A stretch of 64,000 nucleotides of DNA. Source: Apostichopus japonicus. Taxonomy: Eukaryota > Echinodermata > Holothuroidea > Aspidochirotida > Stichopodidae. Location: NCBI RefSeq assembly GCF_037975245.1, contig NC_092578.1:1364001-1428000 (forward strand), in the 5' to 3' direction. Shown one piece after another: positions 25,101 through 53,500 of this stretch (position 1 is the stretch's first letter; the number at the start of each line of letters is the position of its first letter). The translations under genes were made by a program, and so were the position numbers. The notes under the pieces are model-generated. The model saw nothing but the letters and a program-made list of their open reading frames with translations. It ran no database searches and had not been told where the DNA came from.

Positions 25101-28100
25101 TTGTGTTACAAATATCACCAGCCATGAGTGTACCAGTTTCGTCAGCGCACTTCCTCGCAATACGTAATGCATCTCGGTTCATATTCTCCAGGTCGGTTAA
25201 CCGGTTGACCAGTTTCAGCTTCTCCCGGTGTCCATAATACTGTAACAAGGAATACGCGTAGGCCAGTTGATTTATATCGATATGGCAACTTTTGCGTTTA
25301 TGTACTATACCAGTGTTATGTGGGACAAAATACCTTTGACCTCCATATAAAATGTAGAAAGTTTGCTGATAGCATGCAGATGGAGGTAAAACCTCCATGT
25401 TTTAACCAGTGGCTTCGCCAAGGGGGGGGGGGCCAAGGGGGCACGTGCCCCCCTGGAAAACCTAGTGCCCCCCGAGTGCCCCCCATCTGAGATTTGGGTT
25501 GGTAAAAAAAATTATATTTTGTTATATTCAACTCCCATCATCTGAGTTGGTTTAGACAAAGAAGCACAGTAATTCGTATTTTCTTCAAATGAGTTGCGAA
25601 AAAATGAAAAAGTTTATCCTTGAACATCGGGTATCGATCACAACAGGTGTCGATATTTACATTGAATGTGTCAGTGCTCACGCCATACCAGCGGATATAC
25701 ACGTCCGCTTCGCGAGCTACATGACTGTGAGAAGGGAGGGTACTGCAATATGTTGCCTTGGTCTGAGGTTGACAGGTTAGGAGCTGACGAAATGTGAGAA
25801 TGTGAGGGTCCGCAGGCACCATACTTGCCTATATTTGTGGACCCATATATTAACCCTGTTGTGTAGGGGGTGCAGAGGTCATTTGAGGTCAGATGCTTTA
25901 GGAACAAATGGCGAATGTTCACACCTGCATACTGAGCCATACTCGATGTGTGATCAAACTTTGGATTGCATGGTGAGATCCCTGATAGGAGCCAATAACG
26001 ATGCTGGAACCTGTTACATCTTAATAGATAATGGGAGAAAACGAGAAGGACAAGAAAGGAGTCGGGGGTCATGCACACATTAATTCAACAAATAGTTCTA
26101 CTGATAGGGTTAGGAATAATATCGACAGCATGTGGTTCATATCCTTTGCAAAATTCTGCGCGTTGTTAAAATCATTACCTCAAAAATAGCAATTTCTGGA
26201 GATATTTTCAGATCGAATTTAGCATCAAATGTGGCAGCATTTTGCACCTAGCCCATCCTCCGTATGCGAAAATTTTCCAAAGGGGAGGGGGCAGTGGCGG
26301 CGGAACCGGGGGGCTTGGGGGGCTCAGCCCCCAATGAAAAAGTTGAGGGGGCAAATGCATGATAAGCCCCCCAATATTTACCAAGGCTCCGAAACGTGCA
26401 TCTGCCCATTTTTCAATGCATACTTGTCGATCTGTCCGATGCACACATATACTATATAGGTGTAAAATTTTAGTAAATGCTGGGGGACCCTCGGCCCGTC
26501 CCCTGGCTATAGACCACATTGTCACCCCAACGGCGTCTTCACGCCCCGTGAAAAGTGGAAGCAGTGAGTGTGAGTACCGGTAAGCGCAACACAACTTCGT
26601 CTTAGGCCAATGACTTGCTTCATTTCAGCCAGTTCTCCAACATCCCACACTCAAAAAAGTCTTTGCGAGTACACTACGAGTAATAGCTACTCTCTTTAAA
26701 CACCATCGAATATACAAATTACAATGTTTTACAGACTTTTACGTGCGGTCTGAGAAATTGCAGGCTTGAGACCCATATTTTAGGGCTAGCTATTCGCAGC
26801 ATAAAACACTCGGGAAGTGCCGTTTCCGGCCATCTGGGGGTTTGAAAAACCCAAAATTTTCTTGTACGCTCCGCGCCAACCAATGGTGGCGCTCCGCTTA
26901 GGTAGTCTCTACACATTAGCCCCCCCCCAATAATTTTCCCGTTCCGCCGCGCCTGGAGGGGGTACCCCCTTCCCTTAGACCCCTCCCCCAGGACGGCGAT
27001 ACGTATCCACCTGAGTGCCCCCCATCAAATGCTGGTGCCCCCTGTGCCCCCCAGACTGAAAAGTCTGTTGACGCCACTGGTTTTAACTCCATGCTGATAG
27101 GAAGTACAAAATACATAGTGCATGATAAAATGAGTAGGCCTATACTCATCAGTGGCGGCGCCAGGAATTTTTAGTTGGGGAGGCTAAGGGGGGGCTGAGC
27201 CATTTTTTTGGGTGGCTTACAAGATTGAGTGATCGCCGTCCTGGGGGAGGGGTATAAGGGGAGGGGGTTCCCCCCTCCCCTTTTGAAATTTTCCCCAATC
27301 CTGGAAAGGCCTACATGCAAAATGGTGGTAATTTAGCGAGGCTTTTGTCACCTGAAAATTTCTCCAAAAATATGCATTTTTTTGTGAGTAACTTTAGTCA
27401 AATTAGAATGGAAGATACCAATTCACAGTTTTCGTATCACTAAAATATTACCTGCTGTGAAAGATCCAATTCCTTTGCTGGTTACATCTCTATGTTCCGA
27501 CGTCTCTATGTTCCGACGTCTCTATGTTCCGACGTCTCTATGTTCCGACGTCTCTATGTTCCGACGTCTCTATGTTCCGACGTCTCTATGTTCCGACGTC
27601 TCTATGTTCCGACGTCTCTATGTTCCGACAATTTTTTTTACCCAAAATTATTTTAGACCAATATATTTTTATGACCAAATTTTTTGACACCAACATGTTT
27701 TTGGACCAACTTTTTTCCGACCAAATTTTTTTTTGACCAAACTTATTTTGGTCCCAAAAAATTTGAGTGCAAACAATTAAATTTCGGGTCACAAGCAATT
27801 TTCGGTCACAAGCAGTATTTGGGTCATAACAAACTTTGGGCCCTTTTATTCCTGAAAAAAATTTGGTGCGTCCAAAAAATTGTGTCCCCCAAAAAGGTAG
27901 GTCAGAAAAATGTTGGTCCCAAAAAATGTATTCCCCCCCCCAAAAAAAAAACAATTGGGTCTCAAAAAATTTGGGGCCAAAAAAATTAAGTCCCCCCAAA
28001 AAGTTTGGTCTGAAAAATGGGGGACCAAAAAGATTGAATCTCCAAAAACAAATTGGGTCCGAAAAAATGTTGGTCAAAAAAAAGAGTCCAAACAATTTGT

Positions 28101-31100: not shown

Positions 31101-34100
31101 GAAGGACCGGGTGGGGGGGGGGGGGGGGGTTCGCAAAAGTACGAAGCTAACCATAAAATGAAGTTTGATTAGTGATTTTTAACAGAAGACTGTATTTATC
31201 TGTTGAAACGATTTGAAGGGGTGGAATGAAAGTTTCCGCCCTTCCAAACCTGAAAAAACTGGTCGACGTCCCTGTCCACTGCATGGTAGGATCGAGGCCT
31301 ATATCACTATTTTATAACTTGAGGTGATATCCCCATTCCATATGCCCTAGCTCGCTGTTCACAGGACCTGCACGCCCACTCATCCGTTCGCCCACGCTAC
31401 CCCTCATTCCGAACCGACTTGCACCACCCTGTCCCTCTTTCAACCCCCCTGGTCATTTTTTCGTGGGGTTTTGCACTGTTCAAATTTACGGCAACATAAC
31501 TTCCTGCTACAGAAATCGAACCGAATCCCGAACTTGTTCGCAGCAATATTGAAAGATGAGGTCTTTTGATGAATAAACTGACTTCATGTACAAAAGACAT
31601 TAATACGATGGCCCATTAGGGCCATAGTGAAAAAAAAAATTGTCAAGTAAAAAAAAAAAAAAAATCAAGTGAAAAATTGATAAGTGAAAAAAAAAAATTG
31701 ACAAGTGAAAGAAAAAAACAATTCCAACCAAAGAATTAATCTGTCATGACAGATTATTTAATCTGTCGTAACAGATTATTTAATCTGTCGTAACAGATTA
31801 TTTAATCTGTCGTAACAGATTATATAATCTGTCGTAACAGACTATTTAATCTGTCGTAACAGACTATTTAATCTGTCGTAACAGATTATTTAATCTGTCG
31901 TAACAGATTATTTAATCTGTCGTAACAGATTATTTAATCTGTCGTAACAGATTATTTAATCTGTCGTAACAGATTATATAATCTGTCGTAACAGATTATA
32001 TAATCTGTCGTAACAGATTATATAATCTGTCGTAACAGATTATATAATCTGTCGTAACAGATTATATAATCTGTCGTAACAGATTATTTAATCTGTCGTA
32101 ACAGATTATTTAATATGTCGTAACAGATTATTTAATCTGTCGTAACAGATTATTTAATCTGTCGTAACAGATTATTTAATCTGTCGTAACAGATTATTTA
32201 ATTACACATAGATGCCTGCTCTTGTACGGAGACTTCGACGTGCCATATTACTTCTTCTATGAGCGAAATGTCAGTTAGTTCAGATTGAAAAAAGATTGAA
32301 AATGAAGCAAATTAATTTTTGGGTCGATTTATCCTGTATTCCTGTAACTATGAGGAAACGACTATGGTAGTGTGTTTATGTTGGCTACACACATCAAGCA
32401 AAGAGTGTGGAACGCCAAAACCGACCAAAATGCAGTACAAAATTATGTGAACCTTATATGTGAATAAAAAGTTCCCGCTTCATAATGACGTGGAACTGTA
32501 TAAATCCATTTGTGGCACTATTGGCACCGCCAAATTTTAAGAACGCATTTTGGGGGTAAATTTTGGTGGAAAACAAAATTTATTACGGCGATGTGCATTT
32601 ATGGAATAATGCCCGTTTGCTCCTAGTTCACTTTTGGTGCTACATGTTCAAACTTCAGCTGCGTGCTAATGTATCGAAAGCTAGGACAGGACATTAAGAG
32701 TTTATCAGAATGGTAACAATGTATGCCACTATGATATTATAACACATTGTCACAATTCCTGATTCTCAAAGCAACAATTATTTGCCAAATTTTCTTTTAT
32801 TACGTCAAAAGAAATATTTACCATCTTTAAATTCTAAACTAATAAACGATGTGTTTTCCTATTTTCGAGGGTATGAAAGCATAATAATTAAAAATATAGG
32901 GAGGGTTCTCTATATAGGGAACTTTGGATGATAAGTTACAGATCTATTGGTTAGGTAAACGTAGCAGCCGGGGGGGGGGGGGATATCCGTGGGAGGCAAA
33001 TCCCTATATCCAATTTGAACTTGAATTATCCCACTGTTAGAACGCTTAGTAACCGTTTTTTTAGTTCGGAACTTTGATGTTTGGGACTTCTGTATGGCAT
33101 GACGCGAGCTAAAAGGTGGATTTTCAAGCGACAGGGTGGGAATTTTGTCTCTTTCAGGTTTTCCGTCCCACCTAACCTATTTAATGTTTATTAACGAAAG
33201 TTTGCATGACCTGAGTTGGTCCAAACTAGCAGTGGAATCTGCAATGCTTGGCTCTTGATCCCTGACTTGCCGAACCTATATGGTGAAATCATGAATATCT
33301 CTGAAATAAAGTTATTTTTAGGCTAGTTTGATCAGAACAATTATCCTGCATGTCCTCTTTACATCTACTTTCAGTGGCGTAGGAAGGTACTTTTGAGTGG
33401 GGGGGGGCTGAAGACTGATGGCCGGCCTGGGGGAGGGGTCTAAGGGGAGGGGGTGTCCCCCTCCCCTTTGGAATTTTTTGCATTTCCAGGTAGCCTCAGA
33501 TGCAATTTGGTGCAATATAGCACACTTCAACACCCAATCCATTTTGTAAACTTAATTTTGTATTTTCACCAGGCCTTAGATGCAATTTGGTGCTCCAAAT
33601 GAGATTTTTTCTCATTTGGAAATGAAAAAGGGGTTTTCTGACTTGCGAAGCGGGGGGGGGGGGGGGGGCGGAATGATACTTCCGCCCCTCCACATTTTTC
33701 ACTGGGGGGCTGGCGCCCCCCAGCCCCCCCGGTTCCTACGCCCTTGTCTACTTTACATTACAAGTTTGTGTAACTGTGCACGATCACATGATAGCTTAGT
33801 CATTGAAAACATGCTTGATAACAGAGGCGCTCGCAGAAATATAGCCAGGTCCGAAAAAAGGTGGGGGGGGGGGGATCCTGTAGCGTGGACAGCGCCACCA
33901 TTGATTCACAAACATGTCCTTAGATTTTCAAAGTCCAGAAAATTTGGAAAAAAGCAAAACTGACGGAAGGAAAATGATTACTAGAATGAACTTCTGAATT
34001 TTGATACCCCGTATAAACTCATCTATATCCCCTTCATCGTACACAAACGGATGACCTCATGGGCATTAATTTTATTTAAAGCAGCTTTAACATGGCACAT

Positions 34101-37100
34101 CAAAGTCCCCGTACAATGTCCATCTCTGTTAGGACAGATGAAATAGTCTCTCATGACAGGTTATTATCTATGCGGTCGTCATTGTAACGAATCATTTACC
34201 AGTAGGAAGGAAATTTCGGACTTCAAGGAAACTTGAAGGAAATTTCGGAGGAGTTCTACATAATAAGAACATTGCATGTAAGCACATTTCATTTGTAGCC
34301 AGTGTTTTTTAATTACACATTTTGCTATACCGTACTGCAGTTGTAGATACATATTACCGTAGGTAAGCCCAACCATACTAACAATTAACAGAGATATCGA
34401 GAAGAGGTGAGGGTTTTCACGTTCCTTTCCCCAGTTTCCTACCTAAAAAGTTGTTCGTATCATTTACTATCAGAGAGGGCGAATCAACTGTCATTTGGCA
34501 AAGAACCATTACATTGGCTCCTATTAATTGTCAATATTCCATTCACCAAATCACAAGGTAAATTCTTGGTAGGTTGTGCATGCTTGATATAGGTTTCTAG
34601 TAACATACAATTGTCGTTCAATTTTAGAAGTATGAAACTAAATTAACATTTTTGGTTTACAGTGTTCAATAGTGATGATGGTGGTTGGGCCTGGGGAGGT
34701 GACAGGAGATAAAGCATGGAATATGAACTGTGAACTTATACGGTACTGAAAAATGTGTAACAATGGGGCGTAGTTGTTGCCATGGCTTCCCTGTTCGGGT
34801 ATTAGTGGCACATATCACAAATTTCTTAAAATATTTGTGGGGAGAACATGTTATACGAATGCGTTCTAGGAGAATCTGCTCAACTCCGTATAGTACAGGG
34901 AACTAAATTTAGTACGTGACTTATTAATTGGGAGATGTAAAGGTGAGAAATGCAACCCCGTACCCGCGGGTACAGGATTACATGCTCTCCTCTGTGGTCC
35001 ACATACCACACCATCGAATCCACTGTACTGCTGGGGTATAACTAAGTCGTGTACACAGAAGAGTAGGCAAGTTTACATAGCAATAATTGTCTTAGATGGA
35101 TTTCATTTGTTTACAGATATTTTGTTCAAGGCGTAATGGAAGATCGAGAGGAAATTATCCGTCACTATTTTCGCCTTGGATACAGTTATGATGACATTTG
35201 TATTTCCCTTGCATCGCGTCATAACATATTGATTAGCAAGCGGCATCTGAAGAGACTTATTAACTTTCATATGGGTTTGTTTAGACGGAAGCATTATTCT
35301 GATATTAATGATGTTATAGACTTCATTGAGATATTGTTAACGACATCAGGACAGTTACACGGTTATAGGTGGATTCATCTTAAATGTATCTTGCATGGAC
35401 TGACTGTAAGCAGAGAAACTGTTCGCTTGATTCTTGGATTTCTAGATCCAGAGGGCGTTCAAGTTCGGCGGAGAAGAAGACTGAGACGACGCCAATACCG
35501 CGTTGCCGGGCCTAATTTCCTTTGGCACATTGACTCGTATGATAAACTGAAGCCATACGGCATATGCATAAATGGATGCATTGATGGATTCTCTAGGCAG
35601 ATGATATGGTTAAAGGCATACCACAATAACAGCGACCCACGGCTAATTGCCGGCTATTACATGGAATCGATTCGTGAGACCGAGGGATGTCCAGCCGTAC
35701 TCCGCACTGACTTTGGCACCGAAAATAGCATAATCAAACGTATACAGCAGTTTCTAAGGAGAAATGGTAATGATGCCCTAGCTGGCCCTAGTAGCTTTAT
35801 GCAGGGCACAAGCCATCACAATCAAAGAATCGAATGTTGGTGGAGTTTTCTTCGCAAACATTGCACTCAGTTCTGGATGAATGCTTTTAGTTACCTCAGA
35901 GAGGAGGGCATGTTCACTGGAACATACCTGGACAAAGCGTTGATTCAGTTTTGCTTTCTAAATCTTATCCAGGTAATGTATTTTGTATGTAGTCAAATAA
36001 ATCCATGCCATGTATTAGTAACAAATTGCTTGTTTTATGATATGTTTGCAAAATGATAAACCAGAATGCAGAAATGGATTAAGATGGGACAAATTTTGTA
36101 CTTCTGATTATGATGACCAAATGATAGACTTGTGCTTGAACCAATGTGATTCCTCAGCATACAATATGCTATTATAACCATGAGATCTCTCCAAGCTTCC
36201 TCATCTTGAGATATTGTGTCCACATTGTTTTCACAAATTGATGCCTGTTAAACGAAAATAACCTTTGACCTCCATCAAAACAATAAGCTTCTTGTACTCA
36301 ATGCAGTACAACTATATACAACATATCAGACCTTTCCAAGCTTCCAGCCTTGAAATATGGTGTTTACTAGCTGGGCGTCACCAACACACACATACACACA
36401 CCAAAAATGTTACGATTATCATCTAAAAAAAAAAGGAGAGGGGGGAGGGGGGGTCATAGCAGATAGAACAAGAGCATGAAAAGAAATACTTCAAAATTTT
36501 GTGCAGCATATGATTTCTAGGTGCAGAAGGGTGGATGTGCGAATTCAATAAGCATTTTTCACCATGGAGGTTACATATACTATGACATGATTAACTTTTA
36601 ACCAAAATTCGGAAAATTCCAACTAATATTTTTTTACAGACAGAATTACATGATCTGCAGCTTGAATGGAACAACCATCGCATATCACCATCCAGAAACA
36701 GAATTGGTCCTTTCGGTCGACCAGAAATTATGTACACTGCACCGGAACTATATCAAACTAGGAGTTACCTAATGGAAGTGCAACAGGACGAAATAGAAGT
36801 TTGTGAGGAAGAATGTGTCTTTAGGGATAACTTTCCATGCGACAGAGATGTATATGAACTATGTTGTATTCAAATGGTAGATAATAATATTAATGTTCCA
36901 GTTACAGCATTTGATGCCATGATGTTATATGAACGTCTTAGAAGATTGGTGCTGGCTGAACTGTAGGAGAAATCTGCCTCCCCCTGCACCTTTATGCATA
37001 TGGATATTGTATGCTTCCTGTGAGCCTATCTCACATGGCTCCTGATGGAACACATGGTTAAGAGAATTTTTTGGACGTATCAGCAGCCAATCTAATGCCA

Positions 37101-40100
37101 ATCGAAGCCTTCCTAAAAGGCATTAATAGATGAAGGCTGGGTGTCTTGGTGATTGGAAGAGCAAAACATAGGCTTAATTTGCTGACGGAGGCGTTGGCAC
37201 AGTGAAGTGCCCCCAATAAGATTTGTAAAATGGAGGAGTTTTATACTCTTTTATGTTCTGTTTGCTTTACTCTCACTGCAAAACTACCTGTTATTTACTG
37301 TTAATGTCACTTCTTTCCACCCACGTGCACCTGCCCCTTCTGTTTTCCCCTAGTTTTTCCCTTTCTTACCCATAAAGCGTGCATCCCAGGCCAAGCTCAC
37401 CCTGGATAAACGCCTGTTGTTAGTTAAGTTGGACTCAGACTAAGGATATACTTGTCTCAAACTGGGGGATCCCCTGATATTTACTTCAATTATCTGATAT
37501 TAACATGCATGTCTTCTTTAGCTAGTTTTCTCTATGCAGCAATTAGATTTATATTACATTAATCACTTGCCCTCTTTGCTCACCACCACTACACCGACCA
37601 AGTTCATATTAGCCCCCTTTTGCAATCCTTTTCCAAGGTTGTCATAAGCCTATGTTTAAGTGAAAATGATAATTATAGGGTACAATTTTTGTGTAGTTTC
37701 ATACATATGACATATCAAGTGGTGATATAGAGCACATAACCTGCAGACCTATTCGATCACAATAAATTTTTACAGCAAATACACATGATCAAACACAACA
37801 GTGGCTTAAAAAAAAAATAATAATTTGTGGTCAAATTTTAAAAGTAGAGTTAACACCCCTCTGAGAAAGAAGCAAGGCACACCTGAATGTTGTATGGAAA
37901 AAAATCAAGGACGTATTAGGAAGGACATGAGACAAGGTGAGTAATTAAAGGAATGGAATGCTAAGAGTGTGAATGGTTGTCAAATGTGTTGGCAATAGTA
38001 GTAAAATGGCATTAGCTGACAGTACTAACCGTACTTGTTCTGACGAAGTGATTTTTAAATACCAAGACAGAATAATGTAAAGAGGACACTATGACTGACA
38101 ACAGTGTCCTCCAACTACAGCAACAAATATTGATATGGACACAATATGTAAGGACACTATGACTGACAGTAGTGTCTCCATGTTCTGCAGAAGCAGGCTG
38201 CATCCAGTCTAAGCAAGTTCGACAACACGTTACAGTATAATTACAAAGATTTGAAGTATTATCAAATCTGCAGTGTAAAACTGATCATTTGACACAAGAA
38301 AATAGGATCAATAATTGAACTGATAGCCAGATATCTGAGTATCCATCTATATATTTTGATGCTCCTTCAATATACCATGATGTGATACCTTACAGGATGA
38401 ATCCATTACCAAGTCATTGTGTCCTTATAGATGCAATACATTAAGTAATTGAATGGCATGGGAAAGAGGAAAAGGGGGAGGGGGGGGGGGGTAGCCTTAA
38501 CCATACAGTCTAATACATATAAACATAATATCCAAAGACAAAGACCTTACATAAGATATGCATAATGTAGTCTGTGTTTGATAGAGTGCTCAATCTGCAT
38601 AACAAGCTACCTGTATGTCTGATTTATTCCCTTGGATGTTTAAGCATTAATGTACAGTAAGAACACATGACCACAACTATGCTAAAGCAAAGTCAAGACA
38701 TGGTCATCGATACTCAGTTTTGCTTTCTGAAACTTCAGTATGTATATACCTGACCACTTTGATGAATATAGCAAGGTCACTTTTGAAACTAATATACCTA
38801 ATGATATTTAGCTTAAGATATTAAGGGGACAACTATCATGATCAATCTGAGTCATGGGAAAATGGATACTTTCCATACTCATAATAGGTACAGTATATGG
38901 GGTAAACAGAATATTGCATATATGTGTTACAATGTATTGCCATGTACTATTAATATGTAGCTTGGACTTAGGCTCGGACCAGCTGGACTCGGATCTACTA
39001 ATCTCAACTACAGCACTGGACTGTCACTCTAAGTATTTAATGTATTTTTCTCTCTCTAAGTCATGAATTCTTATTAAGTACCCCACATCTAAGTAAATGA
39101 CCCAAGTCATATAGCAGCACTGTACTCTTTATGGTTACTCTGAATATTGGCAATAATGGCAATAACTAATTTTGTTTTGCCCTTTGCCTTAATTATTCCA
39201 TGAATCATTAATAAATTTCACTTTTTTTTGGCTCTCTTAAAGCAGCATTTTGCGTCCTTTTCTATTATTTTTCTCAACCTCACTGACTTGGGTTAATTAC
39301 TTGTATTGAATTTTCAATTCACTGCATAGGTTTTTCTGAAATTTTTCGTTTATCATAACAATCTTTACTGCAGGAATATGACAAAGTTTACAACAAAACT
39401 GTGGAATGACCAGCTCTCCTGCTCTGTTTATTCATGAACAATAATAACTCAAAATAAAAACCAAGAAATAAGTTTAAGATAAAACAATTAAAGTACTTTC
39501 CAAATTATTGAAAATGTTTATGATAAACAACTACACATCTTCAAAACGTGCCCAGAGTAATTACCTGAGGATGCACCAATGCAAGACTCTAATGAGCAGT
39601 GAGGTTGGAGTAGCTGTACATCACACCTCATAGTTCCTGCTCTATTCCGCATAGGACTCATTTTAACTACTGATCTCTCTTTATATTCACGCTGACACTG
39701 TCCTGTTTCTTTCTAAATGATTTATACCACTTTTTGCATTACATACAGGATCTCTGTTTTTGTTGAATATATGGATTAAATATTCTTCAAAATTAAAAAA
39801 CAAAGGCTGCATAAAACTTTACATATAACTCAAAAGTAATGTACAGTAAGCCAACAATTTACTATTTGTAGAAACCATGCCAGTTATGCAAAAAAGTATG
39901 ATAGAAATTTTGTACAAAATTCCTTAGACATACTGCACAAAAATGTATTTTTAATCCGACTTGCTTAATGTACTGACAGTTTCTAGGATCAAAAAGATGA
40001 CAAAAATTGATAAATCTATCCAATTGATGTATAACACTTCCTTGAATATGTTGTAATGGCTCTCTTTTATACTTTGCCAAATTGTCTAAAACTATGAACA

Positions 40101-43100
40101 TATGGAGTAACTACTTCTGCAACTTTAACAAAATGCACTTTTACTACAAAAAAAAACATTAAACTCTCATGCAATATTTAGCCAACACTTCAATCTAACT
40201 ACAGAAAATATTTGTAATGTCAAGTCCTATCTGTTTACTTGTTACTTCATTCACCACGAAGGCTAAATGATGTTGTATGATTTGTTAAATAAGAGACCAA
40301 AAGACAGAAACTTTCAAAGTTCCAGCCGACTTTGCCTAATCAATGTTATACAGGCTGATTGTAATGATTTAAATAAACTGACTCTAGTAGACTAAAACGT
40401 ACACATAACACATATCTACATTTGAAAACAGTTTTCCTGGTCCACAGAGCATTCTGAATGAATGAACAAAACCACTGTACATTTTATCCCTTATCTTAAG
40501 ATGATGGTGATGTAATAATTGGCTGAACAACACCAATTTCTCAGGTTACAGAAGAAAATATCCTTTACTTTAAAACACCACCATAAACAAGAAATATGGG
40601 TCTTTGCAGAAGAAAAATATGTAAAAGACAAGTTGAGGGTACCTCACAAACATAAACTTAAAGTAGTAGAACTTATTTTATTCACAAAGGCCAGCTATAT
40701 TAAACTATGTCCATTACCCAGATACCTGAGTCAAGAACCTGGTTTAGTTCATTTTTCATATCAATGTAGCTTTCATAAGTTGTTGGAAGCTCCAAACACT
40801 GGCTGCAAGTGTGTGCGACTGGCCTGCGTGCAAAGCCATCCAAGAGATTGAATGAAACGTTTAACTGCGGGAATGACAAAACATCAGCCCCAGTCCAAAA
40901 GCGCAAAAACTTCTGAAGCTTGTCTTTCTCAAGGGATCGGATGTACTTCTTTAAGTAAGAAAATACCACATGTTGGCCTTCTGAAATATCTTGTGGGACT
41001 TTTATCCTGCTAATAACTTTCTGGGACGTTGGCATCATGTTTTTGTAGAGTTCACGCAGTTGTAATGGAGTTAGTTCTTCTCGCAAGGGCTCAAGAGTCT
41101 CTCGCATGCTGTCAGCTATGAACATTGGTTTCTGAATTATCTCTTTGTGCCCTATTTCATACAGGATTTGAGGCAAGTTGCGCTTCGTAACTAGAACTCG
41201 GCATCCGTAACCATCAAGAATATCAATCAGCTCATCATAACTAGCACCCTCTGGAAAGTGTGTAAGTGCTTCCACAATGACCATTTTCTCTGACACTGAT
41301 ATGTATTGCAAAAATGCATCCTTCATGTCCCCTTCACTCTTCCCAAATATGGCTTCTTCCATGAATGGGGGACTAAGAGACAATGGAAAGTACCTCATAT
41401 CTTTCCATCCTTTGGAAATTATGCGACCAACTGATTCCCAAGAATTTGCATCAAAGTCATGTCGTAATGAAGGAACTTTGAACTGGTCACCTGTTGAATA
41501 CTTTGCAAACTCCTCCCAAAAAGCTGTGAAGGCATCGGCATACACTCCGGACCCCTCTCCCAATTCAATTTCACCATTTGGCAGTACCATTCTTATCTCA
41601 ATTGCAGAATTTGGTACTTGTGGGTCTTTAAAGAACTCTATGAAGTCTTCAAAAACATGTGTTCTCCTGATTACAAATGTTTTTTTGGTGTGTTTATCAT
41701 CAATATGACTATCACTAGCAGCTAAAGCTGATGGTCGAAACACAATTGTGGGTGTTCCTGAAGGTAATTCATTGCTGGGATGGCCACTTAAATTAATTTC
41801 TGACTCTTCATAAGTCGTCAGATCACTTAGTTCAGTCATTACTTGTTGAGATGTACCAACCGTCACCTCACTGCCAACATCAGTCATCACATGAAGATCA
41901 ATGGCTGGAATTTCATCACCTGAATCATCGGACACATGGACAGTTTCATCTACATCTTGTACCTGGTCAGCTTCCTCAGAGGATGCTTCACCACTAGTTG
42001 ACTCGTCTCTTTCAATTTCTTTGGTAGATATGTACATTCTTAGGACACTCAATTTGGTGGTTTCGTACATCTCTTCAATTGTTGGATTGTTCACAAAGGG
42101 GAGCTTGCGAACATCCATCATCTCAAATTTAAAATCTGCTAGTGTTCCTTTAGGGGAAAGCCCGTCTGGGAAAAACAACTTCTTTGCCTCCTCTAACACA
42201 TGTGAAACATTCATGGCTTTTGGCATAATTAAACGTCGTATGCCACCACCGTTTTGTATACGTACTTGCTTGTATGTGTCCCCTTTGGACAAATGCAGCC
42301 ATCCAACATCAACCCTTCTTTCAGCTTTCGCAGCATTTTTGTTTCCTTGCATTCTGCTGGAACGGTGTGTAGAACCTTCAGTTGTTCTGTTTTCCCTTTG
42401 TCTTAGCCTCAACTTTTCTCGCAGCCTCTCCATTATTTTGTCCTTTCTGGTTGACATTTTCATCAGCAAACCCTTTAAAGAAATAATGCAACAAAAATAT
42501 AAACATCACTATCAAAATGTATTCATATTAAATGAATGCTTACTAAAACACACTCGTACATGTTGACTAATCAGTTTTTCATAATTGCAAAGCTATTACC
42601 AATAATGCCGGGTCAAACAATAATTCTGCCATGCACCTCCATTAATCAAATGTCTTTCATATAACACAATTTACATGAATACTTTGTAATTATCATGCTT
42701 TATGTACAGGACATCTGCACATGCCTATCTATATCACTGTTGGCAGATTGGTTGGGGGGGGGGGATCTTCCCTCGTGCAGGCCAGTCCACTATTAATGGC
42801 TTTTGAACTGTTTATTTCAGTAGGCTATTTTCTGAAAAAGTAGTAGTATATTAAAGGCTTCGTAATTGACGCACCCCCGTAATTGACGCACCTTCAATTA
42901 TTACTAGCAACGATACAGAAGGCCACCTAAACTTTTTGCAGTCAAGCAGAATTACATATTTCATGAGTTTGAATCCATTTCAGCTATTTGCTGACCAACT
43001 TGTGGTATTTTTTAAGCTTTAAACACCCTCCCCCCCAGTTTTACACATTTTTGGGACATTTGGAAATCTTACTCCCTAAAAATAACCAAAACTACTTCAA

Positions 43101-45473
43101 AATGATACCACTACTCTCTGGGACCTGACCTGTCTAAGCTTAGAGGTTCAGAGCATAGCAAACGGCATGCAAAGTCAATGGATGTATACTTAGGCGTACA
43201 ATACAGTTACGACGCATGTGTCAATTTAGGGGTATGAAAGAACTTGACACAGCAGACATTTTGTGGTCAAATTCTTCTCAATTGTACGTTGTGTAAGCAC
43301 AAAACAATAAATATTTTGAGATCATTACATTTCTAAGGAACTACACATATGAAAAGTGCATGCAGTTGAGTGATTTTGATGTTGACCGACATCGTCAATC
43401 CAATCCTTAAGTGCGTCAATTATGAGCCCACCATGCTACTACTAGTACTAGGCTAGGCCTAGCAATTGTTTAATAATGTGTTAAACTCGATCAGTCAAAT
43501 GCTAGGCCACGAAGCAGTGGTATGAATTCCCTCCCAATCTTGCTTCAACTTAGTAATGTATAGTGAAGTGTAGGCCATGGGTTTACTTTATTTCAACTAA
43601 ATCTAACTTTTGCTTTTATCATTCATGGTTAGGGCAGGCCCGGTAACAGCTGTTTGTAACGTTAGGCAACTTAGAGTTGTTCGTAGACCTATGACTAACT
43701 CTGAACATCCATGAAGCCGATGATCTAGGCTTAAAGTTAGTCTTTCTAACCAGAAAAGTAAAACTTTACATGTATAAATAACTTAACATGTTTCAAACGA
43801 ATACAACTTTAAACTTACATGGTAAAACTCACGCCGAAATACAAATGCATCACTGATGGCGTTCCTAATCCTACTGGCTATGCACACGTACGTACTTACT
43901 TCAATGACTGACTGTTCGGTAAGTGGAATATATCATGCGCTATGCGCTACTGTATATGTTGCACGTGCAGCGTGCACTGTGATGTGGTATTGTTCAGCGT
44001 TATTGTGTTGGAGTTCTCTCTTCATACCTTGCTCGTGCCCAGGCTTGGGTTTGGATAAATATATTCTTTACACTTCAATACTCGTGTGTGTTTTTTCGTC
44101 GTTCATCGCCTGGCGTAGACTAATCTGTTACGACAGATTAAATAATCTGTTACGACAGATTAAATAATCTGTTACGACAGATTAAATAATCTGTTACGAC
44201 AGATTAAATAATCTGTTACGACAGATTATATAATCTGTTACGACAGATTAAATAATCTGTTACGACAGATTAAATAATCTGTTACGACAGATTAAATAAT
44301 CTGTTACGACAGATTATATAATCTGTTACGACAGATTAAATAATCTGTTACGACAGATTAAATAATCTGTTACGACAGATTAAATAATCTGTTACGACAG
44401 ATTAAATAATCTGTTACGACAGATTAAATAATCTGTTACGACAGATTAAATAATCTGTTACGACAGATTAAATAATCTGTCACGACAGATTAATTCTTTG
44501 GTTGGATTTTTTTTTCTTTCACTTGTCAATTTTTTTTTCACGTATCAATTTTTCACTTGAATTTTTTTTTTTTTTACTTCAACTTTTTTTTTCACTATGG
44601 CCCTAATGGGCCATCGTACATTAACGTATCCTAAGTAAGATTTTTTAATACCCCTTGTGTTTACCAAAACAAAAAACGTTTTCTTCAATTTTCTCAGTTA
44701 CGTAAAACATCTATCCCTGGACCTCACCAGGGGCCCTAGGGCTGTTCAAAATTACGGCAACATAACTTCCTGCTACAGAAATCGAACCGAATCCCGAACT
44801 TGTTCGCATCAATATTGAAAGATGAGGTCTTGTGATGAATAAACTGACTTCATGTACAAAAGACATTAACGTATCCTAAGTAAGAATTTTTTAATACCCC
44901 TTGTGTTTACCAAAACAAAAACGTTTTCTTCAATTTTCTCAGTTACGTGTAACATCTATACCCTGGACCTCACCAGGGCCCTAGGGCGTCTTGGACCCCC
45001 AGCGGAGAAGCACAGTGCTGCGCGCGCGAATTTATTATGTGCCCCTCAGCCTGCACCTTTTTTCAGTGAAGACAGGGTTCTGATATGATGTTATATCAAG
45101 ATACGCAATCGTTTGAGCCGACGGTCAGTAAACTAAAGCCGGGCTTTAAAAGTTTGCCCACCGCTGGTATAACATAGAACTACAATGGAGATAGCGGAGT
45201 CCGCATAAGACGTATATAACAAGTTGCACAGAAAGCCCGATACCTAATGAAGTTTGCCTATATAACACTTGGACTTGTTAAACAGAAAGTTGTGTTTAAA
45301 AGTATAGTTCACCTCAGTTGTTTCTCTAAAGACAATTTATAAAGAACTATATTAACATTTCTCAAATATGTGGATGTAGTCTGATGCGGTCAATATGGCG
45401 AGTTGATAATGACAATCAATTCAGAAAATATGTGATATTTTAATAGTAGAAAAATCTTACCTTTTGTAGCCAT
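22111..45473 (-). CDS. BHMT: Betaine-homocysteine S-methyltransferase-like enzyme, 355 aa, seven exons
   Basis: Zinc-dependent methyltransferase that moves a methyl group to homocysteine, making methionine; betaine is the expected donor. Exons: 45461-45473, 30137-30327, 25045-25239, 24147-24258, 23408-23604, 23047-23128, 22111-22388. All phases agree and the product is 355 residues. The three zinc-binding cysteines are C216 (GLNCS) and C300/C301 (GLCCG), almost the same numbering as human BHMT (217, 299, 300). The N-terminal part with [14 protein letters not shown] and [13 protein letters not shown] matches the family. The C-terminus is about 50 residues shorter than vertebrate BHMT and ends soon after the cysteine pair, so the vertebrate oligomerisation tail is missing. 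The first exon encodes only MATK plus one base; it is supported by phase and by similarity to the K-K-G start of human BHMT, and is less certain than the rest. Intron 1 holds the 13 kb transposon. Confidence 0.9.
24405..24720. other. GC-rich low-complexity tract in BHMT intron 3
   Basis: Contains two AGTTTGCCCCC motifs (24416 and 24660) and C runs, and may be a worn repeat element. No terminal repeats or target duplication could be fixed. The 94-residue ORF here is not convincing. Confidence 0.35.
25407..27079. mobile_element. hAT-type element, 1,673 bp, TSD GTTTTAAC, with nested insertion
   Basis: Ends CAGTGGCTTCGCCAAGG and TTGACGCCACTG; flanking 8-mers GTTTTAAC at 25399-25406 and 27080-27087 are identical. 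The interior is G/C-run rich and is interrupted by a second element at 26292-26954. Several ORFs up to 135 codons are present, but none resembles a transposase. It lies in BHMT intron 2. Confidence 0.85.
26292..26954. mobile_element. hAT-type MITE nested in another MITE, 663 bp
   Basis: Starts CAGTGGCGGCGGAAC and ends GTTCCGCCGCGCCT. The 8-mers GGAGGGGG at 26284-26291 and 26955-26962 flank it; their low complexity makes the exact edge uncertain by a base. It lies inside the 25407-27079 element, so it arrived later. Confidence 0.7.
27150..28520. mobile_element. hAT-type element, 1,371 bp, TSD ATACTCAT, host of a foldback element
   Basis: Ends CAGTGGCGGCGCCAGG and TTGGCGCCGCCACTG; perfect 8-bp repeats ATACTCAT at 27142-27149 and 28521-28528. 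It is split by the foldback element 27480-28152. It lies in BHMT intron 2, 71 bp from the previous hAT element. Confidence 0.85.
27480..28152. mobile_element. Foldback element with 16-bp repeat TIRs, 673 bp, TSD CCTTTGCT
   Basis: Ends GGTTACATCTCTATGTTCC and, in reverse complement, GGTGACATCCCTATGTTCC. The 8-bp duplication CCTTTGCT is perfect (27472-27479 and 28153-28160). Inside the left end are nine copies of the 16-mer TCTCTATGTTCCGACG; inside the right end are three inverted copies (28098-28148). Between them the left half is rich in GACCAA plus T runs and the right half in GGTCC plus A runs, so the halves are worn inverted copies. No transposase is present; the 184-residue ORF is a repeat artefact. 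Confidence 0.85.
28980..29155 (-). mobile_element. tRNA-derived SINE
   Basis: The minus strand has an A-box-like GTGGTCAAGTAGTTAAGGC, B box GGTTCGAGTCC and then CCTTGGGCAAGGCACTTTATC, the same body motif as the SINE at 11296-11610. It lies in BHMT intron 2. Confidence 0.7.
29156..30136. other. BHMT intron 2, nothing recognised
   Basis: AT-rich sequence with no coding similarity, repeat array or element ends that I can define. The 88-codon ORF at 29210-29476 has no recognisable motif. Confidence 0.4.
30328..31475. other. Start of BHMT intron 1 before the transposon
   Basis: No exon or element recognised. A G run lies at about 31115-31130. Upstream of 31476 the sequence is unlike the sequence that flanks the right end of the transposon, so the tandem duplication starts at about 31476. 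Confidence 0.4.
31737..32202. repeat. Left subterminal array, about 21 copies of a 22-bp near-palindrome
   Basis: Unit TAATCTGTCGTAACAGATTA plus a 2-base spacer TT or TA. The arms TAATCTGT and ACAGATTA are perfect inverted repeats around CGTA. The outermost unit has CATG in the centre and is a perfect 20-bp palindrome. Copies with the TA spacer cluster at about 31970-32085, showing local homogenisation. Confidence 0.95.
32203..35135. other. Transposon interior before the integrase gene
   Basis: Apart from the hAT MITE at 33372-33746 and G runs near 32970 and 33860, I see no gene. The integrase promoter should lie near the end of this stretch, but no motif stands out. Confidence 0.4.
33372..33746. 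mobile_element. hAT-type MITE inside the transposon, 375 bp, TSD TCTACTTT
   Basis: Ends CAGTGGCGTAGGAAGG and GGTTCCTACGCCCTTG; perfect 8-bp repeats TCTACTTT at 33364-33371 and 33747-33754. It is a close relative, in reverse orientation, of the MITE at 46098-46464. It inserted after or together with the larger element's spread. Confidence 0.9.
35136..36966 (+). CDS. Transposon DDE integrase/transposase, 387 aa, two exons
   Basis: Exons 35136-35972 and 36640-36966 join in phase with a GT..AG intron; the stop is TAG. Residues 1-50 form an HTH-like region with [13 protein letters not shown]. An arginine-rich stretch lies at 110-122. The rve-type catalytic core gives D133 (WHIDSYDKL), D192 (RTDFGTEN) and E233 (NQRIECWWS), with 40 residues between the last two. 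[11 protein letters not shown] is the conserved strand after the first Asp. The second exon carries [19 protein letters not shown], a C-terminal part that in integrases binds DNA. It would cut and join the element's ends. It resembles the integrase-core proteins common in fish and cnidarian genomes. No frameshift or stop is seen, so it could be active. Confidence 0.9.
36967..40699. other. Transposon interior between integrase and HECT genes
   Basis: No coding exon recognised over 3.7 kb. AATAAA at 37761 could end the integrase transcript. A pair of hairpin repeats lies at 38082-38179 and a G run near 38480. The size of this non-coding stretch is not explained. Confidence 0.4.
38082..38179. 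repeat. Two direct copies of a small hairpin sequence
   Basis: Copy one (38082-38111) has GAGGACACT and its inverse AGTGTCCTC around ATGACTGACAAC. Copy two (38151-38179) has AGGACACTATGACTGACAG with AGTGTCTCC. Confidence 0.6.
40700..42463 (-). CDS. Transposon-borne HECT-domain E3 ubiquitin ligase-like protein, 587 aa
   Basis: A single open exon from ATG 42463 to the stop at 40700. An acceptor-like site lies just upstream and a donor GTAAGT near 43820, so a non-coding first exon is likely. Residues 1-45 are very basic ([18 protein letters not shown]). Next comes a small domain with [16 protein letters not shown] and [15 protein letters not shown], then an acidic Ser/Asp/Glu-rich linker. The HECT N-lobe starts near [11 protein letters not shown], with [19 protein letters not shown]. 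The C-lobe has [16 protein letters not shown] and [20 protein letters not shown]; the HTC cysteine, near residue 553, is the predicted ubiquitin acceptor. Such HECT proteins are frequent as unassigned genes in fish and invertebrates. Its job in the element is unknown: it may tag host repressors or the integrase. Confidence 0.87.
   Translation of the reverse strand: MKMSTRKDKIMERLREKLRLRQRENRTTEGSTHRSSRMQGNKNAAKAERRVDVGWLHLSKGDTYKQVRIQNGGGIRRLIMPKAMNVSHVLEEAKKLFFPDGLSPKGTLADFKFEMMDVRKLPFVNNPTIEEMYETTKLSVLRMYISTKEIERDESTSGEASSEEADQVQDVDETVHVSDDSGDEIPAIDLHVMTDVGSEVTVGTSQQVMTELSDLTTYEESEINLSGHPSNELPSGTPTIVFRPSALAASDSHIDDKHTKKTFVIRRTHVFEDFIEFFKDPQVPNSAIEIRMVLPNGEIELGEGSGVYADAFTAFWEEFAKYSTGDQFKVPSLRHDFDANSWESVGRIISKGWKDMRYFPLSLSPPFMEEAIFGKSEGDMKDAFLQYISVSEKMVIVEALTHFPEGASYDELIDILDGYGCRVLVTKRNLPQILYEIGHKEIIQKPMFIADSMRETLEPLREELTPLQLRELYKNMMPTSQKVISRIKVPQDISEGQHVVFSYLKKYIRSLEKDKLQKFLRFWTGADVLSFPQLNVSFNLLDGFARRPVAHTCSQCLELPTTYESYIDMKNELNQVLDSGIWVMDIV
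42857..43427. repeat. Possible MITE remnant with GTAATTGACGCAC ends
   Basis: Left GGCTTCGTAATTGACGCAC and right GTGCGTCAATTATGAGCC are inverted, about 570 bp apart, and the left motif is repeated once. No target duplication was found. It lies in the transposon, upstream of the HECT gene. Confidence 0.4.
44121..44492. repeat. Right subterminal array, about 17 copies of the 22-bp near-palindrome
   Basis: Unit TAATCTGTTACGACAGATTA plus spacer AA or TA, the reverse complement of the left array. The outermost unit has CACG in the centre. The two arrays face each other across 12 kb. Confidence 0.95.
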
Positions 45474-47563: not shown

Positions 47564-50500
47564 CTAGAGAAGAACATTCCTATGAGTTTGGAGTTGAGAT
47601 TTTTGAAGACCTGTAGTGAGAATCCAGTCCATACTCATTATCACCTTAAGAAGACTCCAAGCATTCTCCCAGGCCTCTGTCTTACTGGTCACAGAATCAA
47701 GCACTATCCCTGGTTTATGAATATTCATAGAGGATCCAGACAGTCTATCAGTCACAAATCCAGTCTGCTTCTCACAATTGGTCTTACCAGGTCTGACTAA
47801 CACACTGGAAAAGTGATCCTGAGGTAAGCTGTGATGAATGCTGGCTTGATGAGCACTCTTTTGGTCGTCTAAAGAAATTAAACTTTGATCTCTGCTTGTT
47901 TGGACATCTGGACCAGCATTTATGGAATGAGTTGTATCATTCGTTTGATGAACTGCTTTGCAGTCTGAACGACTGGCTCTATCAGTCTCAGATAACAGAC
48001 TAGATGTGTCAGTCTTCATGTAGTGATCCACACTTGAACTGCTCTCTGTTCTACCAGCACAAATATTACAATTAGGAACTGATAGACTGACTCCATCAGT
48101 ACGACTGAAACCATCAGTACTAAGAGGCATGCTTTGTGTCCTGGCTTTGGCTTTATGACAGCCAGTTTTTGCCTCCTGCTCCTCAATCTCTTGAAAACCA
48201 CTAGTAGAAGTTGGAGCTATGTCAGTGAGAGAGTTCTGGCTGGTCAATAATGTAGAGTTAATTTCCACGGTTGTTTTCACCACTTTGTCCGGGGTCCAAT
48301 TTTTGTCTTGACGGGATGAAAACAGGGTTTCTATTACAGCCTCAGTGTCCAAATATGAGGCTGATACAAAATTCCTGATGGCAGTCTTGATGTCAAACTT
48401 TGACAAATTGCCTTGATTTGAAACTAACCAAATTATGAATTCTTCCAACCCCTCCTGGAATGCTTCGAGTACTCTCGTTTCTTCCAAAACTTTACGAGAA
48501 CCTTTCGGCTGACCCAGTGAGACTGTGAAAACAAGGATGAATAAGACAAATAAAATCGACCAATGCTTCAGAAAACAGTGAATAGGATGGACAGATCTGG
48601 TCTGGAGGGTCGTTTGGATAGTAAAACAATCTGGGTAATATATAAGCTTTAATACACTACAGCTTAGGATGCAATTTCATTGGAATGTACACAGTGAAAA
48701 ATAATTTCTCTCCTGCGTGATTATGGCATTCTGGGCTGTAACTGAATCTGTCCCGTTTAAATTTTAAATACTCATGAAATTTGAGTTTCATAAGTTGTAA
48801 TTATGTCCTTCATTTTTACACTAATGAATGTTTAGTTATCAGAGCAGGATAATGGAGGATATGTATGAGAGAGGCACTGGATATTCCAGGTGATGCTATA
48901 ATTATAATTAATCATAATATAATTAATCATAATTAATTAATTATAATTAAGTATAATATAATTATAATTAATAACTATAATTAATCAGTAAGGATTGCCA
49001 TTACTTTCAACAGAGCTATATGCAGCAGCATGAATGTTTATTGTTGGTAGAGTAGAGGGTTTACAGGCTCAGATCCAGGGGATGGGGGAGGGGGAGATGG
49101 GGGGTAATTTGCTGACTGGGGCCTTACCTTTATGTTCTTCTAATTTTCTTAATACTTTTAGTTCTGTTATTGCGCCTCCCAAACAAACGTATCGCATCTT
49201 CAATAAATCTCTCAACTTGTGATAACTTGACCAAAATTTTACTCTCTGTTCCTCTACATGAGGGTTACTTGGTCCACAGATTACCACTGTCTGAAATAAT
49301 GGAACATAAATGAAAAACCAAAATAGATATATTATCACCATAAACTTAATCCAAAACAATTCACATATGTAGACGATGTGACCTTAATAAAGAAGTACTT
49401 GGATGATCATTGTAACCTAAAACTGAAAGAAGATGAATTATGTTATGCTTAAGACTAACAGATGACTCAAGCAATGGAATTGAAAAATCTAAAGTAACTT
49501 ACAAAATGACAGAAAGCTGAAACAGTTGAATACAAACAGTTTACACCTTCTTTATCACACTAGACAAAACAATCACCAAGTATATTGATGCAATGTGAAA
49601 CTGAATGGCTCCTGTCCTGACTTCATACAACACAGGGGAGTTACATCGGTTTTCAACAAGGGAGTTTTCTCAACTGCCTTATTCGGTATAAAGGGTCAAA
49701 TATATTTTCAAACAATGATATAATGATCCCTGACCTTTGATCTTAAATTCTTAAACTACCCAACCACCCACTATTCAAATATTGTTATGAGCAACATTGA
49801 TCCCCGATCCAGACAATCATGTACAAGGGTCAGAGTTTGAGTAGTTTCAAACAATTACCTATAATGTCCACTTAACGACCTTTGACTCTGACCTGAATCA
49901 GGAAGACAAAGTAGGGCAATGTTTGAATCCAATGGGTGTGAGTCTGTGCTGTAGAAAGCCATTACTAAAGCTACCAATTTTCCTTGCTCGATAAACCATA
50001 AATTTGTGAAGATTTTTTTTTTCCCGTAGAGAGTAATACTGTTGAACTTGGCTAAATGCAGGAAACTTACTGACAAATGACTTGGCTCGATTTAAAATTT
50101 AGAATATCTCGTTAATTTATCTGATTAATGACAACAATGTAGTAAAAGCTATTACATACATGCAGGCTGTTAATTCCTGTTATTTTGATGAAGGCTGTTT
50201 GTTGGGTTTGAAGCTTTCTGACCACAGAATGCCAGCCTGCCTCCCAACAATCTATGTGGAGATTGTCACAAATATCATGCTGTGGACAAAAAAACAAAGA
50301 CAATGATAATCCTGATAATTATACTGATAGGGGGACACAATAAAGGACTGCTTATGATAATGGGGAGGGTGTTGGGGGAGGAGGGGGGCTAACAAGGCCT
50401 ACTATACATGGCTTTGTGTGGTGAACATTTGTTTTATTTGTACAGTGAATGTTTACATGTCACATTTGCAATCATGTATGTCAAAGGTCATTCTTCAAGT

Positions 50501-53500
50501 AGGGGAAAGATTCTTTTATTATACTGCCCTCATGCTGTCATTTATATCAGGTATTCTGATTTAAGTCTTTTTTATTATCTTGTAATGGGTGTAAGAAACA
50601 GGGCAAGTTTAACCCCTATAAAATTTAGGGCAAATGTTGGCAGCAATGTACAAGCCTTGAAAGATAACCAATTACAACTAATCACCTCTAAAGTAAGGTG
50701 CACCTCAGTCACACAAATTAGGACATTATCCTTCTGCCCCCCCCCCTACTTCTCACTAAAACTTATTTTGTTTTCCCCACAAAGTAGAGGGGTAACGCTC
50801 AAACTATATCACCCTCCTCTTTTTCTTCATACCTAGATTAGGAATGTTTCATACCTGAGTAATACATGTAAAATATACATTGATATGTGTATTTGTGACT
50901 GCACTCAAATACTCCAAGGCACTAAAAGGTACTGACGAGACAACCAGGATATCATTAGCCAAGCAGTAATCACATAGCTGAGTATCCACATGACCTTTGA
51001 CCAGAATCATTGAAACTTTCAGCTGCAAAGAGATTAAACTTGATTAGACCTTGTATCAGTATAGTCAGTGGTTTAATATCTATTATATTTATTACACTAA
51101 CAAGAATCATCAGTTCTGTGACCTGATGTATTGGTCCTAGCAGGATCTTGATCCTCTGAATAAGATCCTTCTAGGATCGACATGTCATTCCATCTAACTA
51201 CAATGGTGTTTTGCAGTAGATAAGCAGTTTGTTAACAGTTCATTTCACTCTCTCTCATGTACTGTTATTATAAAAGTGCTACATTCTAATATTAGGGCAA
51301 AGGTGGCCACCCTTTAAATAGTAGAACAACATAGAGTTACTCATTAAGAATGTCTGGTAAAGAAAATTGAACAATGATTTGAAGGAACAAAACTTTCAAA
51401 TAGTGCAAAAATCTCTTCCCATAATGGCCAGTTACACATCAATCCCTCTGACGACTTTAAAAGAAAAACTTCCCACTCTCTGGAACAAATTCATTTATTT
51501 AATGTAAATAGCTTCTTTAATAATCGTCTTCTTCGTAGTCTTCATCATACTTTGTTCTGATTCGATACAAGAAATGTTTATCCTACCTCCTGCAAGATTT
51601 GCTTAATGTTATCCAGCCATGATGAGTGACTGTCCCTTGCACTCTGTGAAAGGCTATCTGTGACAAGCTTTACTTCCATTGGGCCTTTGAAACCTGGATG
51701 TTTGAATCCAGGTGTCAAATCTCCATTGATTAACTGTGAATCAAACATAAAAATTGAAACCTAGAATACATATACAGAGCACCATGGGATATGTAAATGC
51801 ACATCTTAACAGACAATGGGGCATTGCACCTTTTGCGATATGTTATGCTTTGCAAAGAAGGAGAAGGATCTAAATACTAAATATTCTAATTTTACATATC
51901 CTTCTACCAAACACGCTATAGTGGGTAAAAGTTGTTTCTTAAATTTGACATTATTTCTGTCACTGTATTTTAGCCAAAAATGCAACAATTTATCTGTTCA
52001 ATGGCACAGTGGTATTAGACATGGTTGAATAATTACAGGAAAGATGAAATTATTCAGACCTCTTCTATTTCAAGATATCATCACCATTTGCTGGAAATGT
52101 TTTGTCATTTGTAACCTGTTCCACCAAACAATTCAAAGTTGCACATTTAAAGTACATATCATTGATTTTGTCCATTAACTTACCACTGCTCTCAAAGAGT
52201 TGCATCTAAGAGAACTCACAAGAGGAATCTGGTCTACCTCACATCTTAGCACCAACCCATCTATGATGGTGGAATCCTCTACAGAAGGACCAAGGACCTG
52301 GCAAACAAAAGGATCTCCATGGTGACTGCTAAAAAACAAGGAAAGCAAGATACTTATCCATGTGTAAAATGCAAGAAAAACATCATAACACAAAGTTATA
52401 AGCTAAAAAAACAAAAATTAGGGAAATACTACATAGCAACAGCTAGACTAGATAAGTATAAACCATCAGTACTCCCTCCACCCCCCTCTTCCCCTCCCCT
52501 ACCACAGGCATTACACTTTCATACTGCACAAATTGTTCATGCCACATTTAATAAATTAAACTCCTTCATTGTTAATGTCAGCTGAATCAAACAATGAGGT
52601 GAGTTTAGTTTTGTCCAAATATATCATTTTCTTCTTAAACAATGAAATAAATTTCACAGCTTGGTTTCTCTATCTGTTCTCACAACAAACCTGTTTTATA
52701 ATTTTGCATCTAAAAAGGTACAGGGAAATCGAATAAAATCACATTTAAAATGTATAAAAACAAATAAATCAAACAAGACAATTCATCCATTAAATGTTAT
52801 AATGTCTTAAAATCTGACATTTGTTGGTTTAAAATCAGTGACCAAATCATCCAATAAATCAATGAATAAATGAATAAAAGATATTGTTTATTTACTTATC
52901 CTGCAACTGCTTTAAGCAGATCTGCTTGGCTAAATTCATTGAAGACTTCGCACCATGAGATAAACTACCACTGGTAAACAGAAAGAAATATGTATCAAAT
53001 TGTGGTCAATTCATTACAATTTTAACAAGCAATCTTACACGATTCTTTGCTACTTTCGATAAAATTTCATTACTTTCCAGTTAGAATTTACATTTCCTCT
53101 ATAAAATGTTTCCAGATGAATTGAGTAACAAACCAGGTATTTACCATCTTGAGTTAAAAAAAAAAAACAGTCTGAGCAACAAACCATGTTTTTGCTTCTT
53201 TTTGTAAAAACCACCCAATTTTAACTTCTATTTTCTTGTTAGAGTAACCTTCAAGGAAGAGCAAATTATCAAAGGGACAACAGCAAACATTCTTAAAATT
53301 CAGCTCTGCTCTGTTCACAGACAGCACCACAACTAATTGGAACTTACCAAAGATTCAGAAATGCTTGAACTCTCTCATCATCAATATCCTCATCAGTTGG
53401 ACTGAGAGAATGTCTTGAAGAACTAGCAACAGAGTGAAAATGTTGAATACCTTTGTTGCTGCATGAGATGGGTTGATGAAGTGTTTGTTCTCCTACTCTC

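Follow-up and report, generated by a model that had tools for sequence, protein, structure and literature searches.

A probable IS3EU/GingerRoot-type DNA transposon of Apostichopus japonicus, in which a DDE transposase gene faces a HECT-domain protein gene

Introduction

A window of 64,000 nucleotides of the holothurian Apostichopus japonicus (contig NC_092578.1, positions 1,364,001 to 1,428,000; coordinates given below without a contig name are those of this window) contains a unit of 13,015 bp in which a DDE integrase-like gene and a gene for a HECT-domain protein face each other between inverted repeats. The initial annotation of the locus read it as a mobile element bringing its own ubiquitin ligase gene. 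This raises the question of whether the HECT gene is a regular partner of the transposase or was caught by accident, and what such a partner could do for the element. The mobility of the whole unit, the recurrence of the convergent gene pair and the agreement of the trees of both proteins support the view of a mobile element with its own ligase gene. It is very probable that both the anatomy given here and a conserved partnership of transposase and HECT protein in an element of the IS3EU/GingerRoot kind are correct.

Structure and copies of the element

The element spans positions 31604-44618, opens with TACGATGGCCCATTAGGGCCATAGTG and closes with the reverse complement of TACGATGGCCCATTAGGGCCATAGTG. 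It is flanked on both sides by the target-site duplication (TSD) CATTAA (left, 31598-31603; right, 44619-44624; no strand assigned). The terminal inverted repeats (TIRs) are perfect over their first 35 bp (left, 31604-31638, + strand; right, 44584-44618, − strand) and pair imperfectly up to about 135 bp (on the left side to about 31738). The bounds, the length, the perfect TIRs and the 6-bp duplication proposed in the initial annotation were all exact. The termini, TACGATGG..CCATCGTA, are TA..TA ends. Each end has a subterminal array of a 22-bp unit, the near-palindrome AATCTGT-CGTA-ACAGATT: 21.2 copies on the left (31736-32202, + strand) and 17 copies of the same unit, inverted, on the right (44121-44493, − strand).

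Two convergent genes lie inside the element, the DDE transposase on the + strand and the HECT protein on the − strand. Both had been described as intact; they are indeed open and on opposed strands, but the integrase-like gene is not a single open frame and is read as two exons. The eight further open frames of at least 80 residues (two antisense frames inside the HECT gene excluded) gave no Pfam match, in a scan that could miss genes made of short exons.

A second full copy occurs at C8:13960563-13973751, with the same TIRs, the TSD AAATAA as read on the contig, and both genes free of stops. It is 99.1% identical to the window element over 12,857 aligned columns; the alignment has 490 gap columns, and the three 500-bp bins in which the arrays mostly lie account for 290 of them and one bin near 34104 for 122. 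The 26-bp TIR had 24 matches in the genome at up to three mismatches, against none for the reversed control. These matches form seven pairs and ten singles, and all seven pairs are bordered by perfect 6-bp TSDs, each different. The three long pairs are the window element (CATTAA), the C8 copy (AAATAA) and a 19,061-bp copy on C17 (GCCTGT); the four short ones are on C15 (ATATAG, 1,015 bp), C17 (CACTTG, 874 bp), C21 (GTCATT, 2,471 bp) and C22 (CAAATG, 422 bp). As to whether other copies of the TIRs ever enclose the HECT gene, three of the seven pairs do, namely all the long ones. The four short pairs have no HECT or PF24764 match among the matches listed, and they are non-autonomous copies. Two single TIRs, on C19 and C20, adjoin remnants of both genes. 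Since copies with the same TIRs occupy different sites with different TSDs, the whole unit is mobile; the element is apparently autonomous and probably a cut-and-paste DNA transposon.

Transposase and classification

The transposase gene comprises exon 1 (35136-35972, + strand), which holds the DDE core as located by Pfam match and aligned relatives, and exon 2 (36640-36966, + strand), which includes the stop. The intron between them (35973-36639, + strand; GTAATG..TTTACAG) is deduced from its GT..AG borders and from collinearity with relatives. The spliced product has 387 residues and is collinear with relatives of 390-392 residues. The integrase match on the + strand was to PF24764 (E 3.3e-27). 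The catalytic residues D133, D192 and E233 (codons 35532-35534, 35709-35711 and 35832-35834, + strand) are invariant in the 22 aligned sequences, i.e. the window protein and 21 relatives. The protein search for transposases covered the best 120 of 1,106. No invariant HHCC zinc finger was present in the alignment of 22 sequences, and relative P0059 gave an HTH_21 match below the cut-off. PDB searches with the transposase gave no match, and scans of viral contigs with profiles of both proteins confirmed no viral relative. Of the initial description as a 'retroviral-type' integrase, the integrase-like DDE core stands; the protein fits the IS3/IS481-like group and not the Gypsy/retrovirus group, a preference based on the TIRs, the TSD and the lack of an HHCC zinc finger.

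Three papers, each available in part, served for comparison with known systems, and statements on them refer to those parts. IS3EU/GingerRoot elements have TA..TA termini, TSDs usually of 6 bp and a DDE transposase devoid of HHCC finger (PMC10045372), the same as the window element, which very probably belongs to the DNA transposons of this type; the resemblance to IS3EU that the initial annotation suggested is matched by the published description. Fungal IS3EU elements carry genes for a TET/JBP dioxygenase and an alpha-kinase, and, as in the window element, the second enzyme gene is opposite in orientation to the transposase; what differs is the enzyme and the host, alpha-kinase and TET/JBP in fungi versus a HECT ligase in an echinoderm (PMC12730594). 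HECT is not mentioned in the available text of either paper, nor is ubiquitin in that of PMC10045372. In the literature searched, which covers few subscription papers or Repbase entries, no report of HECT in IS3EU was found, and a Repbase record of a HECT-bearing family may possibly have gone unnoticed. The IS3EU superfamily and its enzyme cargo in fungi are already described.

Ginger1 elements offer a further likeness, as integrase-like transposons bearing a ubiquitin- or SUMO-pathway domain, and their authors proposed in 2010 a role of the ubiquitin pathway in transposition (PMC2836005). Their OTU or Ulp1 protease domains are, however, fused to the transposase, whereas the window element has a separate ligase gene; a zinc finger and a GPY/F motif are also Ginger1 features in which the window element differs (PMC2836005). 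The window transposase has neither the zinc finger nor a fused OTU or Ulp1 domain. It is hardly credible that the element is of Ginger1 or Polinton type instead of IS3EU: the integrase-like DDE core and the protease-bearing Ginger1 transposases (PMC2836005) would fit that assignment, but the missing HHCC finger, the TA..TA ends, the 6-bp TSD and PF24764 as the best Pfam match speak against it, as do the eight further open frames without a Pfam family. In these frames Pfam detected no DNA polymerase or capsid gene, the genes that Polinton/Maverick elements have beside their integrase.

HECT protein

The HECT protein gene (40700-42463, − strand) is a single open frame of 587 residues. It encodes a ubiquitin-like (beta-grasp) N-terminal domain (residues 48-149; 42017-42322, − strand), a disordered linker and a HECT domain (residues 256-587; 40703-41698, − strand). 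The HECT match (PF00632) scored 36.9 bits versus a cut-off of 23.9, with several relatives falling below the cut-off. Both lobes of the bilobal HECT fold are predicted, the N-lobe being divergent. The predicted catalytic cysteine, Cys553 in the motif AHTC (codon 40805-40807, − strand; kept in relatives), was placed by aligning profiles with UBE3C (6k2c). The E value of the whole alignment was 4.8e-5, and its C-lobe portion was weak when taken by itself. The catalytic HTC motif noticed initially is part of a complete HECT domain.

The HECT protein of the C8 copy is letter for letter the Apostichopus japonicus protein record P0001. Eight genomic HECT open frames were read: catalytic TC is present in the seven that reach the site (from four families, some being near-identical copies), and the eighth, C17d, stops upstream of it. 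The database searches, with about 8,000 candidates scored in each, yielded at least 11 distinct relatives; seven of 11 have HTC, P0131 has RIC and three end before the site, so that all eight reaching it have the cysteine. An additional SAM-like N-terminal stretch occurs in P0004-P0007 and P0130 (in P0005, SAM_3 with E 0.057, below the cut-off) and is missing from the window protein.

The cellular HECT ligases UBR5, HUWE1, UBE3C and AREL1 share with the window protein the bilobal fold and the catalytic TC, at 13-20% identity among the Foldseek matches listed. The window protein differs from them in its ubiquitin-like N-terminal domain, its disordered linker and in being encoded by a transposon. 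We infer that the window protein is an active thioester-forming ubiquitin ligase (E3) working through Cys553.

Genome-wide pairing of HECT and transposase genes

The genome searched consists of 35 contigs and totals 671.6 Mb. Pfam gave 96 HECT matches and the window protein 49, which were merged into 77 loci; the 143 matches to PF24764, a lower bound as 150 of 224 candidates were scored, formed 83 loci. A transposase locus lay at no more than 15 kb from 41 of the 77 HECT loci, and the two genes were convergent in all 41 cases. The proximity of integrase and HECT genes, within 15 kb, extends beyond the locus first annotated; a pair from Holothuria is described below. Random placement gave a mean of 0.92 pairs and a maximum of 6 in 500 shuffles, while shuffles retaining the hot regions of C17 and C16 gave a mean of 2.58 and a maximum of 10, some contigs being assigned rounded lengths in the shuffles. 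On contig C17, mostly at 15-26 Mb, there is a marked accumulation of 27 of the 77 HECT loci and 35 of the 83 transposase loci.

The 36 HECT loci without partner comprise 23 found by Pfam only and 13 matching the window protein (nine fragments and four long ones with in-frame stops). Among the 17 Pfam-only loci with at least two matches, taken for host HECT genes, 16 had no transposase locus within 15 kb.

Related families and agreement of protein trees

The first further HECT loci examined, ten in number, were chosen for repeated scores or long open frames, hence not at random, and one of them is the C8 copy. Using the window transposase in tblastn, a partner was found at eight of the ten; Pfam added one at C17:20488923, while the remaining locus, C17:23424374, had none within 15 kb by Pfam. 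Two diverged families were recognized among them, A (copies on C16, C17 and C12) and B (C16 and C1). Both begin with TATGGCAAGCCGTTTT, have palindromic subterminal repeats, and their ends, TATGGCAAG.., are of the TA..TA type; fungal IS3EU ends, TAYGG..CCRTA, are as in these two families (PMC12730594, in the part available). The family-B element on C1 is complete (22,667 bp, TSD CGGCCG), with HECT and transposase genes convergent inside it, and is much diverged from the window element. For family A, one end was found in three copies, whose far end was not reached in an additional 3.3 kb, and other, shorter two-ended pairs with TSDs were found by pattern. Four such pairs with family-A ends, among the matches listed, have perfect 6-bp TSDs, and altogether perfect 6-bp TSDs border all five TIR pairs examined in families A and B. 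Around a pair on C7, 7.7 kb of flanking sequence revealed no TIRs.

The pattern TATGGCAAGCCGTTTTA had 1,072 ends at up to one mismatch, compared to two for the reversed control, and the first 100 places listed included many facing pairs less than 10 kb apart. Families A and B, or elements sharing their ends, are abundant. Their TSDs are GC-rich (CGGCCG, CGTCCC, CGGGCG, CGCCCG, AGGGCG) whereas AT-rich ones predominate in the window family, so target preference may differ between them. The subterminal palindromes of the diverged families (AATCTGT..ACAGATT, TGATATCA, CTTAAG) are alike in design and different in sequence; one guess is that a dimer binds to them.

Trees of transposase and HECT protein were compared for six pairs (window, C16a, C16b, C17b, C3 and Holothuria) picked by sequence availability, with partial proteins used. 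The Holothuria pair, HOLleu_35318 and HOLleu_35319, is known from its protein records, which bear consecutive locus tags and give the same length for their contig. Both trees share the same topology, with three inner branches in agreement and local supports of 0.90-1.00. Transposase and HECT distances correlated with r 0.79, the true matching being the best of all 720, and the agreement holds at up to 75-80% protein divergence.

As the facing pair recurs in related elements, the HECT gene looks like a long-standing partner and not accidental baggage; the agreement of the trees, likewise, suggests that the two genes have been kept together since long ago and that HECT is more than cargo. Transposase and HECT E3 form a conserved, convergent two-gene lineage.

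Other features of the window

Outside the element, open frames of 370 and 540 residues at 47564-48676 and 53344-54966 (both − strand), without Pfam match, are perhaps host exons. At 27487-27629 a 16-bp tandem repeat of 8.9 perfect copies overlaps a low-complexity open frame.

Discussion

Several observations weigh against a maintained partnership with an active ligase. Near-identical copies occur among the 41 pairs, so the independent families are fewer. Between the window and C8 copies the transposase shows seven non-synonymous changes and one synonymous, i.e. no signal of constraint, in a count over a short distance that spans both open frames with untrimmed intron borders. The HECT gene of the 19,061-bp copy on C17 (91% identity) has five in-frame stops, and no PF24764 was seen inside that copy among the matches listed. 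At 42 of the 83 PF24764 loci, some of which are fragments, no HECT was detected within 15 kb; others may have a HECT gene too diverged to be recognized, and HECT-less relatives may exist. P0131 has RIC where others have HTC. Finally, the HECT protein ends in WVMDIV, with Met at the fourth residue from the end, where many HECT ligases have Phe, and its ligase activity is accordingly uncertain.

The 42 loci just mentioned would be expected if HECT were a host gene caught between repeats, or a recent passenger without role for the element, and so would the many HECT genes of the genome and the mobilization of HECT-less copies (four of the seven TIR pairs). Such an origin is nevertheless very improbable, given the recurrence of the convergent pair, a topology shared at such protein divergence, the existence of the pair in Holothuria and the retention of the catalytic TC. 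In its narrower form, a host HECT gene trapped between unrelated repeats, it is rejected on the basis of the 41 pairs, all convergent, the lack of a nearby transposase at 16 of the 17 loci taken for host HECT genes, and the agreeing trees.

The RIC of P0131 and the WVMDIV tail, together with the weak Pfam score and the divergent N-lobe, would suit a HECT protein that has lost its ligase function and takes part in the transposition machinery as a structural or binding component, using both its folds, ubiquitin-like and HECT, as scaffolds. A conserved second protein beside a transposase often assists it, which also favours this possibility. It seems unlikely, however, since TC is kept in the seven genomic frames reaching the site and the cysteine in the eight database relatives, and both lobes are predicted.

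Taking the HECT protein as an active E3, a mechanism can be proposed. The transposase would bind to the TIRs, possibly to the palindromic arrays as well, and integrate the element at a 6-bp stagger. Acting in trans and through Cys553, the HECT protein would aid the persistence of the element, and its likeliest target would be a host factor of chromatin silencing or repair that holds the element in check. This removal of a host restraint is preferred only tentatively, and on the analogy of the fungal IS3EU elements, whose TET/JBP genes are thought by the author to help them escape methylation silencing (PMC12730594, in the part available).

The main alternative is that the target of ubiquitination is the element's own transposase, which fits nearly as well. 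The HECT protein would then limit the transposase level, as a control of copy number, or tag the transpososome for disassembly after insertion. This is possible, if doubtful. Agreeing trees are expected of co-adapted partners, and the convergent arrangement of all 41 pairs could permit mutual control; on the other hand, linkage within one mobile unit suffices to explain the agreement of the trees. A more specific version appears unlikely: HECT would be a dedicated transposition factor ubiquitinating the transposase within the strand-transfer complex, which a host unfoldase or proteasome, recruited by the ubiquitin-like N-terminal domain, would remove so that repair proceeds. The ClpX-MuA step of phage Mu is the comparison for such a self-encoded removal of a eukaryotic transposase.

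Transposons with proteases of the ubiquitin and SUMO pathways are already on record (PMC2836005, in the part available). In the element described here the ligase gene is conserved and separate, and two near-identical intact copies exist; this offers a clean route to test the role of ubiquitin in transposition, as changing one cysteine would alter the ligase and leave the transposase untouched. For annotation it also means that transposons may be the source of some animal genes that bear the name 'HECT domain-containing'.
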